Assembly: GCF_900101025.1 (NCBI RefSeq)
Contig: NZ_FMUH01000007.1
Span: 186,001 to 250,000, forward strand
DNA length: 64,000 nucleotides
Direction of reading: 5' to 3'
Source of the DNA: Klenkia marina
Lineage (GTDB): Bacteria > Actinomycetota > Actinomycetes > Mycobacteriales > Geodermatophilaceae
Part shown: in pieces, positions 52,856 to 64,000 of the stretch
Numbering within the stretch: the first letter of the stretch is position 1
How the letters are laid out: each line of letters opens with the position of its first letter
The notes under the pieces: model-generated
What the model was told of the DNA's origin: nothing
Seen by the model: only the letters and a program-made list of their open reading frames with translations
The model's database searches: none
Position numbers and translations under genes: made by a program

Positions 52856-53245
52856 ATGGCCACCTGGGCGGACGTCGAACGCATCGCCACCGGACTGCCG
52901 GCGGTCGAGGAGAGCACCACCTGGGGCAACCGCTGCTGGAAGGTCGGCGGGAAGACCTTCGTGTGGGTGCGGCCGCTGGGGAAGAAGGACCGCGCCGACC
53001 TCGGTGACGCCGTGCCCGACGGCGAGGTCATGGCCGTGCGCGTGGACGGCGAGGGAGGCAAGGCCGAGCTGCTGGCCGCCGAGCCCGAGGTCTGCTTCAC
53101 CGTCCCGCACTTCGACGGCTTCCCCGCGGTCCTGGTCAGGCTCGACGACGTCGAGGGGACGCTGCTGACCGAGCTGGTCGAGGACGCCTGGCAGGTGATG
53201 GCCCCGCCGAAGGTGCGCAGCGACCACGGACCCCGGGACGCCTGA
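52856..53245 (+). CDS. MmcQ/YjbR family DNA-binding-like protein
   Basis: 129 residues. Family features: TWADVERIATGLPAVEESTTWGNRCWKVGGKTFVWV (start, Trp-rich), FTVPHFDGFPAVLVRLDDV, and LTELVEDAWQVMAPPK near the end. YjbR has a CyaY-like fold and has been linked to DNA binding, but its role is not established. ATG 52856 follows the broken hydrolase by 20 bases and may share its transcript. Confidence 0.88.
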   Translation: MATWADVERIATGLPAVEESTTWGNRCWKVGGKTFVWVRPLGKKDRADLGDAVPDGEVMAVRVDGEGGKAELLAAEPEVCFTVPHFDGFPAVLVRLDDVEGTLLTELVEDAWQVMAPPKVRSDHGPRDA

Positions 53246-53300: not shown

Positions 53301-53972
53301 TCAGGTGTCGGCGCGCAGCAGCGGGGGGTGCAGTTGCTCGGCCGGGCCGCGGCGGTAGAGCTGGGCCGGGCGGCCGCCGTCCCGCGTGGTGGTCTCCCCC
53401 GTGGGGTCGAGCAGGCCGGGGGTGCCGGTGACCTTGCGGTGGAAGTTCCGGGGGTCCAGCGCCCGGCCCCAGACCACCTCGTAGACGCGGCGCAGCTGGG
53501 CGACGGTGAACTCGGGGCCGCAGAACGCCGTGGCCAGGGCGGTGTACTCGAGCTTCGCGCGGGCCCGCTCGACCCCGTCGGCGAGCACCCGGTCGTGGTC
53601 GAAGGCCAGCTCGCGGGCCTGCGCCACCGGCACCCAGCGGGCGTCGGCGGCATCCGTGCCGGCGGTGGGCGCCGGCTGGTCGGGCACCAGGGCCAGGTGC
53701 GCCACGGTGACCACGCGTTGGCGGGGGTCGCGGTCGGGGGCGCCGTAGGAGGCCAGCTGCTCGAGGTGGCCGACGTCCAGGCCGGTCTCCTCGGCGAGCT
53801 CCCGGGTGGCAGCTGCCGCGAGGTCCTCGTCGGGCCGGACGAAGCCGCCGGGCAGCGCATCGCGCCCGAGGAAGGGCTCCTCGCCGCGGCGCACCAGCAG
53901 GGCGCACAGGTCGTCGCCGCGCACGGTCAGCACCACGAGGTCGACCGTCACCGCGAACGGGGGGAACGCCAT
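53301..53972 (-). CDS. Nudix-domain transcriptional regulator (NrtR-like)
   Basis: 223 residues. An N-terminal Nudix domain with an intact box (Gly43 ... Glu49 ... REL-AEE at 57-62, GL) is joined to a C-terminal winged helix (about 150-215: [34 protein letters not shown]). This is the architecture of NrtR and related regulators, which sense ADP-ribose or sugar-derived ligands and control NAD or sugar-use genes. The Nudix catalytic residues appear present, so it may also hydrolyse its ligand. It is divergent from the SPFH/NAD-kinase-like pair, and the 81-base spacer contains palindromes that fit an operator. Autoregulation and control of that pair are inferred. Confidence 0.9.
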
Positions 53973-53985
53973 GCCGCCACCCTAA

Positions 53986-54036
53986 CGTCAAGTTGACGAC
54001 AAGGTCTTCTCGTGCTTATCGTCGTGATGACGACAA
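53986..54036. promoter_or_regulatory. Palindromic operator region for the Nudix regulator
   Basis: cgtcaagttgacg (53986-53998) and tcgtcgtgatgacga (54019-54033) are inverted repeats, and each contains or adjoins an exact tgacgacaa (53994-54002, 54028-54036), 34 bases apart. They fill the spacer between the divergent regulator and SPFH genes. The spacing (about three helical turns) fits two dimers on one DNA face. Confidence 0.6.
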
Positions 54037-54053
54037 CGAACGAGGAGGACGTC

Positions 54054-55052
54054 ATGGCCGACATCGCCCGCTATCCCTTCACCCGCCACCTCCGTGGCTC
54101 GGCGACCGCCTACGTGCAGCACGTGACCGCCGGCCGCACGCGGCACGCCGGCACCGGGGCCAGCTTCTGGTTCCGCCCGCTCTCGGCCGTGCTCAGCGAG
54201 ATCCCGGTCGACGACCGCGAGCTCCCGCTGCTGTTCCACGCCCGGACGGCGGACTTCCAGGACGTCACCGTGCAGATGACGCTGACCTTCCGTTTCGCCG
54301 ACCCGGCCCTGGCCGCAGGCCGCGTGGACTTCTCGATCGACCCCGACACCGGCCTGTGGCGCGGCACCCCCCTCGAGCAGGTCGCCGGACTGCTCACCGA
54401 GTCGGCGCAGCAGCACGCCATCGACCTGCTCGCCGGCGCCGTGCTCACCGCCGCGCTCACCGGTGGCGTCGGGCCGGTGCGGGAGGCGGTGGCCGCCGGT
54501 CTGGCCGCCGACCCGCGGCTGGTGGAGACCGGCATCGTGGTGGTCGACGTCCGGGTGGTGGCGATCCGGCCCGAACCCGAGATGGAGCGGGCCCTGCGGA
54601 CGCCGACCCGCGAGCAGGTGCAGGCCGACGCCGACGCCGCGACCTACGCCCGGCGGGCCACGGCCGTCGAGCGCGAGCGGGCGATCAGCGAGAACGAGCT
54701 GGCCAACCAGGTCGAGCTCGCCCGGCGCGAGGAGGAGCTGGTCGGCCAGCGCGGCGTCAACGCCCGGCGGGAGGCCGAGAACGCCGCAGCCGCCGCCGAG
54801 GTCGCCGCGGAGTCGAAGGCCCGCCGGGACCGCGCCGCCGCGGTGGTCGAGGCCGAGCGCACCCGGGTGCAGGGCGAGGCCCGCGGCGCGGCCAACCGCG
54901 CCGAGTGGGCGGTCTGGGTCGACATGCCGGTCGAGACTGTGCACGCGCTGGCCCTGCGGCAGCTGGCCAGCAACCTGCCGCAGATCCAGAACCTCACCGT
55001 CACCCCGGACATGCTGACCGGGCTGCTGGCCAAGCTCGGGACCGACCGGTGA
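54054..55052 (+). CDS. Soluble SPFH/band-7 domain protein
   Basis: 332 residues from ATG 54054 (GAGGAGG upstream). Residues ~8-185 look like an SPFH domain ([80 protein letters not shown]). A charged Ala/Glu/Arg coiled coil follows (about 190-285), then a short C-terminal domain. No N-terminal membrane helix or hairpin is present, unlike flotillins and stomatins, so it is probably cytosolic or peripheral and oligomeric. It overlaps the NAD-kinase-like gene by 4 bases and is probably controlled by the divergent Nudix regulator. The function is unknown. Confidence 0.85.
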
Positions 55053-55927
55053 GCCTGGCCCCCCGTGTGGTGCTCGTGACCCGGGCCACCGAGCTCACCG
55101 AACTGGTGGCCCGGCACGGCACCCGCGGGCAGGCCGCGTTCTTCCTGCGCAGCCGGGGCCGCGACGTCGACGAGGTGGCCGCACGCGACGCCGCCCAGCA
55201 GGCCGCGGTCGCCGCGGCGCTCGCCCAGGTGCCGCTGGACTGGCGGCGGGGCAGCGTCGAGCGGGGTGACCTGCCACGGTTCCTGTTCGCGCCCGACGAC
55301 GTCGTCCTCGTGGTGGGGCAGGACGGCCTGGTGGCCAACGTGGCCAAGTACCTCGACGGCCAGCCGGTGGTGGGTGTCGACCCCGAGCCCGGCCGCAACG
55401 CCGGGGTGCTGGTGCGGCACCGGGCCGAGGAGGTCGGCGAGCTGCTGGCGGCCCGCGACCGCGCCGACGCGCTGACGATGGTGCAGGCGCGCACCGACGA
55501 CGGGCAGGTGCTGACCGCGCTCAACGAGGTCTACCTGGGCCAGCCCACCCACCAGACCGCCCGCTACCGGCTGCGCGCCCCCGGCGGGGAGCCCGAGCGG
55601 CAGGCGTCGTCGGGGCTGCTGGTGTCGACCGGCACCGGGGCCACCGGGTGGTGCCGGTCGGCCTGGCTCGAACGGCACAGCGCCCTCGCCCTGCCCGGGC
55701 CCACCGATCCGGCGCTGGCCTGGTTCGTGCGCGAGGCGTGGCCGTCACCGGTCACCGGCACGACCTGCACCGAGGGCCTGCTCGGCCCGGACGACGAGCT
55801 GGCGCTGACCGTCGAGAGCGACCGCCTGGTGGCCTTCGGCGACGGCCTGGAGGACGACCACCTCACGCTGACCTGGGGCCAGCAGGTCACCGTGGGCCGG
55901 GCGCCCCGCCGGCTGCGGTTGGTCTGA
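55049..55927 (+). CDS. NAD-kinase-like protein with altered GGDG motif
   Basis: 292 residues. The layout follows the NAD/diacylglycerol-kinase fold: VVLVTRATE start, [13 protein letters not shown] (residues 85-97) where NAD kinases have GGDGT, LNEVYLG (158-164) matching the NE motif, and [15 protein letters not shown] (187-201) matching the glycine-rich STPTGSTAY loop. The second Gly-to-Gln and Thr-to-Leu changes in the phosphate-donor motif make normal NAD kinase activity uncertain; it may bind or modify another nucleotide. GTG 55049 overlaps the SPFH stop, so the two are co-translated. The housekeeping NAD kinase should be elsewhere. Confidence 0.8.
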
Positions 55928-62812: not shown

Positions 62813-64000
62813 CCCTGCTCTACGCGATCGGCGGCATCGCCGTCCTCGTCGTCCTGCTCGTGCTGCTGGTGCTCTCCCGCATCAAGGTGGCCGGGCCCAA
62901 CCAGGCGTTCCTGGTCACCGGGCGGCAGGGCCGCTCGGTGACCGGCGCCGACGGCACGGTCAGCCGCGACATGAGCGGGCAGAAGGTCGTCATGGGCGCG
63001 AGCGTCTTCGTGCTCCCGGTCGTGCAGAAGCTGCACACCCTCGACCTCTCCAGCCGCCGCATCCCGGTGGGCATCCGCGGCGCGGTGAGCAAGCAGGGCG
63101 TGAAGTGCGACCTCGAGGGCGTCGCGATCGTCAAGGTCGGCGGCAACGAGTCCTCGATCCGGGCCGCCGCGCAGCGCTTCCTGCAGCAGCAGCAGGGCAT
63201 CGACACCTTCACCTCGGAGGTGCTGGCCGGTGCGCTGCGCTCGATCGTCGGCCGGCTGACGATCGAGGAGATCATCCGCGACCGCGCCGCGTTCGCCTCC
63301 GCCGTCGCCGAGGAGGCCGAGACCTCGCTCACCGGCCAGGGCCTGGTGCTGGACACCTTCCAGCTGCAGGACATCCAGGCCGAGGGCACCTACCTCGCCG
63401 ACCTCGGCCGCCCCGAGGCCGCCCGCGTTCTCAAGGAGGCCTCGATCGCCGAGGCCCGCGCCCGCCAGGCCGCCCAGCAGGAGCAGCTGCTCGCCGACGA
63501 GGCGATCGCGGTGTCGCAGCGTCAGCTCGCGCTCAAGCAGGCCGAGATCGACTCCGAGATCGACGCCGCGAAGGCCCGCGCCGCGGCCGCCGGTCCGCTG
63601 GCCCAGGCCGCCCAGGACCAGCAGGTGCTCGCCGAGCAGGAGAAGGTCGCCGAGCGCACCGCGACCCTGACCCAGGCCCAGCTCGACACCCAGGTGCGCC
63701 GTCCGGCCGACGCCGAGCGGTACCGCGTCGAGCAGGAGGCCGAGGGCCGCAAGAACTCGAAGATCCTCACCGCGGAGGCCGACCGGCAGGCCACCATCGC
63801 CGCCGCCCAGGCCGCGGCCGAGCAGGCCAAGCTGTCCGGTGAGGGTGAGCGGGCCCGCCGCTCGGCGCTGGCCGAGGCCGAGGCCATCGAGGGCGCCAAG
63901 CGCGGTGAGGCCGAGAAGCTGCGCCGCGAGGCCATCGCCGACGCCGTCGAGCGCGAGGGTGCCGCCGAGGCCGCCGCGATCCTGGCCAAGGGCAAGGCCG
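62809..64000 (+). CDS. Flotillin-like SPFH protein, 3' end outside the window
   Basis: The frame is open from GTG 62809 to the window edge (397 codons). An N-terminal membrane helix (LLYAIGGIAVLVVLLVLLVL) is followed by an SPFH domain (IKVAGPNQAFLVTGRQG, VFVLPVVQKLHTLDLSSRRI, GVAIVKVGG, ALRSIVGRLTIEEIIRDRAAF). A long Ala/Glu/Gln/Arg coiled coil with EAEA/AEAR repeats begins at about residue 205, as in flotillins. Flotillins scaffold membrane microdomains and influence membrane fluidity. It is co-translated with the NfeD-like gene. Its C-terminus and length cannot be judged here. Confidence 0.93.
   Translation, partial: MTLLYAIGGIAVLVVLLVLLVLSRIKVAGPNQAFLVTGRQGRSVTGADGTVSRDMSGQKVVMGASVFVLPVVQKLHTLDLSSRRIPVGIRGAVSKQGVKCDLEGVAIVKVGGNESSIRAAAQRFLQQQQGIDTFTSEVLAGALRSIVGRLTIEEIIRDRAAFASAVAEEAETSLTGQGLVLDTFQLQDIQAEGTYLADLGRPEAARVLKEASIAEARARQAAQQEQLLADEAIAVSQRQLALKQAEIDSEIDAAKARAAAAGPLAQAAQDQQVLAEQEKVAERTATLTQAQLDTQVRRPADAERYRVEQEAEGRKNSKILTAEADRQATIAAAQAAAEQAKLSGEGERARRSALAEAEAIEGAKRGEAEKLRREAIADAVEREGAAEAAAILAKGKA

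Follow-up and report, generated by a model that had tools for sequence, protein, structure and literature searches.

A three-gene unit occupies positions 53301 to 55927 of the stretch of Klenkia marina DNA analysed here (the window: 64 kilobases (kb), C14:186001-250000 of a 4.2-Mb genome). Gene P0001, on the minus strand (53301..53972), encodes a regulator and putative repressor with an intact Nudix box, made up of a Nudix domain and an NrtR-type winged-helix domain. It is divergent from, and faces, two genes on the plus strand. P0002 (54054..55052) encodes a soluble SPFH (Band 7) protein of 332 amino acids, recognised from Pfam Band_7, its structure model and Foldseek. P0003 (55049..55927), with a GTG start, encodes an NADK2-like protein of 292 amino acids, recognised from a profile comparison with PDB sequences, its structure model and Foldseek. 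The start of the kinase-like gene overlaps the stop of the SPFH gene by 4 base pairs (bp). An alternative start for the SPFH gene exists at an upstream GTG (54012); the ATG at 54054 is preferred because an ATG is kept at that position in 76 of 80 relatives and GAGGAGG lies directly upstream of it. An initial annotation, made from the letters alone, had described an NrtR-like regulator with an intact Nudix box divergent from two overlapping genes, with which both coordinates and Pfam agree. Kinase-like proteins in four Klenkia records are 86-90% identical to P0003.

The three-gene unit is real and widespread. In a class-wide sample (evenly drawn, a single genome for each species, several genera contributing many), relatives of the SPFH and kinase proteins occur in an identical set of 42 of 246 genomes and, by listed coordinates, are adjacent in 42/42. 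By genus, the pair is present in 13/104. The regulator family is far wider, reaching 229 of the 246 genomes. Closer inspection covered 80 loci, the best 80 of at least 398 relatives and hence the closer ones, several of them sharing a genus. Here the SPFH gene adjoins the kinase gene in 80/80 and a divergent regulator is present in 71/80; the SPFH and kinase genes overlap by 4 bp in 55 loci and by 1 bp in 18. The co-occurrence of the three families, proposed earlier as a check, is thus that of a conserved unit. When the neighbourhoods of these loci were clustered from the output of a crude gene caller, the SPFH gene was picked up in 77 and the regulator and kinase genes in 59 each, so that the adjacency counts above are the better ones; the next clusters reach 9 loci and seem limited to close relatives. 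Pairwise distances of the three proteins correlate (Mantel r 0.72-0.84, n=69), a figure uncorrected for species descent, with nearest neighbours that often differ, and not relied on. Flanking proteins were taken as one called gene on each side, up to 700 amino acids long, and 113 of the 138 so listed were kept by hand, without near-duplicates and some short sequences; among the 113, a Pfam family matches at most three and a PADLOC family at most two. With no recurring neighbour, the cassette appears as a free-standing unit. In the window, a small gene adjoins the regulator (52856-53245), and its Klenkia brasiliensis counterpart (L030:3818-4222) matches Pfam YjbR.

At the level of the phylum, the kinase query matches 26 of 396 sampled genomes, 12 of them at identities of at least 57% (own genome included). 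The other 14 matches show 27-37% identity, with an SPFH relative in the few kb around the kinase only in genome G259; the remainder are presumably ordinary NAD (nicotinamide adenine dinucleotide) kinases. In G259 (locus L153) regulator, SPFH and kinase genes lie side by side on one strand at 26-37% identity, and the kinase copy carries an in-frame stop. Relatives are also held by 64 plasmid records, nine of which were examined. SPFH adjoins kinase in 9/9, the SPFH gene being cut short in L160, a locus in which the regulator was not found. A divergent regulator is present in five (L156, L159, L162, L163 and L164). Rhizobium, Providencia and Methylomonas have the same three-gene order, and in Cupriavidus the protein beside the pair is a regulator. 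Among named records, the SPFH-kinase pair extends over Actinomycetota, Pseudomonadota and one record of Spirochaetota, the first two of these phyla also having the complete set of three genes. At the DNA level, none of 20,395 E. coli records matches the Providencia cassette. In some plasmids of gammaproteobacterial type, as in Acinetobacter pALWED1.1 (L164:4980-7841) and pHHV216 (L160:4426-7841), the kinase-like gene is the direct neighbour of tetR(H)-tet(H). On pHHV216 the SPFH gene is reduced to its C-terminal half, with a transposase gene on that side, and part of the cassette seems to have travelled with the resistance region.

The spacer between the divergent genes contains two 21-bp palindromes on the plus strand, S1 (CTAACGTC-N5-GACGACAA, 53982..54002) and S2 (TTATCGTC-N5-GACGACAA, 54016..54036), spaced 34 bp apart. 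Each is matched on both strands at up to three mismatches, giving four matches vs 0.04 expected. Exact copies of TGACGACAA lie at 53994 and 54028 and are the sole two in 64 kb (0.13 expected; two were reached in 1/100 shuffles). The two palindromes and two exact repeats reported by the initial annotation are therefore both present and above chance. S1 and S2 are also the only sites within three mismatches of the operator pattern in the whole genome, and a reversed control gave none. A promoter scan found one sigma-70-like site in 53950-54070, TTGACG-18-TATCGT (53993..54022, plus strand; 0.0 in shuffles), whose -35 element is contained in S1 and whose -10 element is contained in S2. Sites covering both -35 and -10 give the layout of a repressor. 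A similar promoter pattern occurs in 66 of 80 relatives vs 24 of 1600 random stretches, a count that is not independent of the operator. The operator core with at most 1/12 mismatches is found in 73/80 upstream regions vs 3/1334 control stretches. Controls in both cases were random 250-bp stretches of the same loci; those for the operator exclude up to 900 bases from the SPFH start and those for the promoter do not. Two operator sites, at the looser level of three mismatches, are present in 72/80 loci; measured from start to start, they are 33 or 34 bp apart in 67 of these, which goes beyond what chance gives. Proteobacterial spacers show, as judged by eye, TTAGTGTC-type half sites around a GTC...GAC core.

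Operator sites also occur at loci whose regulator gene is at a distance. An adjacent regulator gene is missing from nine of the 80 loci; seven of these retain the operator (0-2 mismatches), and their genomes encode a regulator elsewhere that is 65-76% identical (65% in one, 73-76% in six). For the other two, L079 (4 mismatches) and L092 (3 mismatches), the genomes hold only 51% paralogues. An operator scan of 16 further genomes found a site in 14; genome G214 has no site and only a 50% regulator paralogue. Genus g8 is taken for Streptomyces by likeness to named Streptomyces loci. All eight scanned g8 genomes that carry the pair (G023, G107, G128, G161, G182, G246, G549 and G574) have sites before the pair and also before a distant regulator gene whose product is 74-76% identical to P0001, and two g8 genomes without the SPFH-kinase pair (G334 and G352) retain the site at the regulator gene.

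Further sites of this type were seen in g8. In L149, L151 and L155 a solitary regulator orthologue with its own operator is followed by an ABC-type ATPase gene (by Pfam in L149, by eye in the others). The same arrangement is found in G334, where, given the missing pair, the regulator probably has another role. One g8 genome has two near-perfect TTATCGTC-N5-GACGATAA palindromes 6.4 kb apart (L145:7070 and L145:13509), each upstream of small genes to which Pfam assigns no family with confidence. Extra operator-like sites, for example in G023 (439069 and 445508) and G352 (C19:220324), led to genes of no clear family. A related palindrome, TTATAGTC-N5-GACTATAA, lies just upstream of a 62% regulator paralogue at G246:C26:11850-11870, hinting at a sister operator type.

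P0001 matches Pfam NUDIX (PF00293, 1.1e-22, 80.9 bits) and NrtR_WHD (PF21906, 2.5e-15, 56.8 bits), both over cut-off. Against NF050029, the equivalog for the ADP-ribose-responsive repressor, it scores 137 bits where the cut-off is 400, which places it by sequence in the same superfamily but on a different branch. Residues R29, R84 and H126 are invariant in 76/76 aligned regulators, including P0001, four proteobacterial proteins and L153. In a mapping read from printed alignments, R29 and R84 are the counterparts of Arg41 and Arg98 of SoNrtR. According to excerpts of PMC4666351, these two contact ADP-ribose; Arg98 is Gly in AraR, and Arg41 has an Arg counterpart there. The proposed kinship with ADP-ribose-sensing NrtR is thus matched by both contact arginines being kept. 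The Nudix box is complete in 68/70 actinobacterial-type regulators. The only other NrtR winged-helix match in the genome lies at G000:C13:60611-60778 (L154), in a frame whose Nudix region appears degraded by eye.

P0002 matches Pfam Band_7 at 2e-10 (41.4 bits vs a cut-off of 23.6). Its model (predicted local distance difference test, pLDDT, 83.9) consists of an SPFH domain followed by a single long helix at residues 175-289, and its Foldseek matches are HflK/C, erlin, stomatin, vault and flotillin. The membrane anchor usual for SPFH / Band 7 proteins was not found in P0002: its maximum 19-residue hydropathy is 1.61, and among 94 relatives no value exceeds 1.91, whereas the open frames containing the other two SPFH genes of the genome reach 3.23 and 3.06. 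The lack of an anchor had been noted at the outset and stands. Proteins of the SPFH type build rings and domes that sit for the most part on membranes (PMC12624060); taken with the absence of an anchor, a cytosolic ring is the natural guess for P0002. The window has a second SPFH domain (62887-63462); its frame includes a strongly hydrophobic segment and seems to encode an ordinary SPFH protein of the membrane.

For P0003, NCBIfam gives weak NAD kinase matches (best 1.3e-5). A 35-row profile searched against PDB sequences matches human NADK2 in two segments (4.1e-17); bacterial NAD kinases come no closer than 3e-7. For the model (mean pLDDT 93.8), the best Foldseek match is NADK2 (7r4l, E 5.8e-18, template modelling (TM) score 0.74). 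Structure prediction, another of the checks first proposed, thus yields an NAD-kinase fold with human NADK2 as the closest solved relative, an NADK2-type assignment that compares solved structures only and involves no tree. Conservation was read from 92 aligned kinase rows, the window included (4 of 96 short or remote rows were dropped). GxDGLVAN is invariant, x being Gln in 89 and Pro in 3, and the Thr that follows GGDG is replaced by Leu in 92/92. D92, N159, E160, D265 and G266 are likewise invariant, so that the catalytic Asp, the NE motif and the C-terminal DG are kept. GQDGLVAN is present in 9/9 plasmid rows, including Rhizobium, Roseomonas, Providencia, Acinetobacter, Methylomonas, Cupriavidus and Treponema. 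The corresponding stretch of the deep relative L153 is GPDGMVVN. The initial annotation had read GGDGT as changed to GQDGL with NE remaining. The change is real and NE is kept, but it is the signature of a whole family that has the catalytic Asp and not the decay of one copy. In excerpts of PMC8553519, the Asp of GGDG is the base that activates the 2'-hydroxyl of NAD, and the residue after GGDG is linked to donor choice. Taken together, the invariant Asp and NE and the GGDGT-to-GQDGL change suggest that catalysis is likely retained in P0003 and that the donor side is altered, GQDGL favouring a change of phosphoryl donor or of product; the role of the second Gly is our own inference. The genome holds a separate canonical GGDGT NAD kinase at G000:C12:7459. 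P0003 is thus not its sole NAD kinase, the case that the initial annotation had named as fatal to its proposal.

The genomic arrangement in conjunction with the conservation data may point to a derepressible cassette that responds to NAD or ADP-ribose, with a cytosolic SPFH assembly and a coupled NADK2-type dinucleotide kinase. This is the reading tentatively favoured here, at a confidence that falls slightly short of evenly balanced. Regulation of the pair via S1 and S2 is, as a prediction, well supported: from sequence and conservation, P0001 would act as a repressor on these sites, over the -35 and -10 of the SPFH-kinase promoter. As the conserved ligand-contact residues suggest, accumulation of an ADP-ribose-type nucleotide, for example from NAD breakdown, could release the repressor, and the intact Nudix box of the actinobacterial form may hydrolyse the signal and so reset the switch. 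The SPFH and kinase genes would then be translated as a coupled pair. From its fold, P0002 may form a ring or dome in the cytosol, free of any membrane anchor, and the NADK2-type enzyme would work with it, phosphorylating NAD(H) or a close dinucleotide.

A number of observations weigh against this reading. P0003 has no match to Pfam NAD_kinase (PF01513) at E up to 1 and is without the GGDG motif, and the bacterial NAD kinase 7qvs is close behind NADK2 in Foldseek E-value (7.8e-18; TM 0.60). The model of P0002 is of a single chain, with a predicted TM score (pTM) of just 0.51. The solved chains nearest to P0001, AraR (5bs6, 5.7e-30) and SoNrtR (3gz5, 9.8e-30), are near-equal; AraR senses L-arabinose and NdnR responds to NAD (excerpts of PMC4666351), so that family membership alone leaves the ligand of P0001 unfixed. 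The Nudix box is degraded in 4/4 proteobacterial regulators tested and in L153; for MsNrtR, also with a degraded box, excerpts of PMC6800001 give release by ADP-ribose (50 mM as printed) and no hydrolysis. At three mismatches the operator core is found in 79/80 loci, yet also in 269/1334 controls, and L087, with an adjoining regulator, has the core only at this control level. G418 has no site within two mismatches despite an adjacent 71% regulator, which contradicts a strict rule. The Roseomonas, Kitasatospora and Treponema plasmid loci (3/9) have whole SPFH and kinase genes and no regulator nearby, the proteins beside these pairs giving no Nudix or NrtR_WHD match and no tblastn match to P0001.

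Other explanations share part of the evidence. P0003 could be a subunit that binds NAD(P) without catalysis and controls the SPFH assembly as a sensor or gate, as would suit its obligate linkage to a structural protein and the loss of both the second Gly of GGDG (Gln or Pro) and the next Thr. Lost activity usually relaxes catalytic residues. The invariance of the catalytic Asp, NE and C-terminal DG across all aligned rows makes such a role unlikely, if still deserving of attention; NE does read ND in 7/9 plasmid rows, which is still within the known NE/D motif (excerpts of PMC8553519). Alternatively, P0003 may be an ordinary second NAD kinase that raises NADP (NAD phosphate) under stress, with the SPFH protein as a passive partner or chaperone. 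NADK2, its closest match in profile and fold, is a true NAD kinase, and NrtR-type control of NAD genes is known (excerpts of PMC6800001). Such a spare enzyme is improbable in a genome that has a canonical GGDGT copy; the nearly invariant GQDGL makes the donor or product probably non-standard, and the strict SPFH linkage suggests more than a spare.

The patchy distribution and the occurrence on plasmids in several phyla would fit an anti-phage or toxin-defence module that uses NAD, since conflict systems often involve NAD and ADP-ribose (PMC9503650). The initial annotation had raised phage defence, which found no support in any search. PADLOC gave no match at E up to 1 for the SPFH or kinase protein and one weak match for the regulator (PDC-S07, 1e-4); 50,697 phage records gave no match; none was confirmed in viral contigs, searched with only two peptide patterns; and no defence family recurs among the 113 flanking proteins. 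A defence role accordingly appears quite improbable. Least credible is a sugar-type regulon in which the regulator senses a small sugar like AraR and the kinase acts on a sugar, despite the nearly equal scores of AraR and SoNrtR and the 'sugar kinase' annotation of several plasmid records, e.g. Rhizobium and Methylomonas. P0001 keeps the counterpart of the ADP-ribose-contacting Arg98 that is Gly in AraR, the profile and fold of P0003 are those of NADK2, and Sugar_tr and GFO_IDH_MocA match only 2/113 flanking proteins each.

Within the favoured derepressible cassette, a bolder version is conceivable but rather doubtful: a new bacterial machine in which a cytosolic SPFH assembly has a dedicated NADK2-clade client kinase with a changed donor or product, and the phosphorylated dinucleotide, or an ADP-ribose derivative, is sensed and perhaps destroyed by the cassette's own Nudix repressor. 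If true, signal, enzyme, scaffold and off-switch would all lie within one cassette, and human NADK2 would gain a bacterial sister family. A full-text search of one open-access library found no description of the cassette and no paper joining SPFH with NAD kinase. The gene set is conserved and strictly linked, has a clear switch, and has no function described in the literature so searched. Three themes meet in it: ADP-ribose-type sensing, SPFH proteins free of membranes, and an NADK2-like enzyme whose donor motif is rewritten. The family may be informative on the origin of NADK2 and on SPFH roles away from membranes.

Among known systems, the NrtR family (SoNrtR, MsNrtR, NdnR and the AraR branch) shares with P0001 the Nudix and winged-helix domains, a divergent gene, palindromic operators and the ADP-ribose-contact arginines. 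It differs in its targets, which are nad genes where those of P0001 are putatively the SPFH-kinase pair, in the Nudix box that is intact in most actinobacterial-type relatives of P0001, and in the operator, TTATCGTC-N5-GACGAYAA in the cassette vs GTTTTCGA-N7-TCGAAAAC for mycobacterial NrtR (excerpts of PMC6800001). With the canonical bacterial NAD kinase (PpnK/NadF), P0003 has in common the fold, the general-base Asp and the NE motif; it has no Pfam match and differs where the canonical copy of the genome has DGVLAATPTGSTAY. Human NADK2, the best profile and fold match, further shares an aligned N-terminal stretch, a PVIGV loop and an SSG...TGTG...W motif, whereas P0003 is shorter, has GQDGL for GGDGT and is encoded beside an SPFH gene. 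HflK/C, erlin, stomatin, flotillin and the major vault protein have an SPFH domain followed by a long helix, as in P0002. Other SPFH genes are linked to protease or NfeD genes. Unlike the usual SPFH / Band 7 proteins, P0002 is without a transmembrane anchor, and its linked gene encodes a kinase-fold protein.

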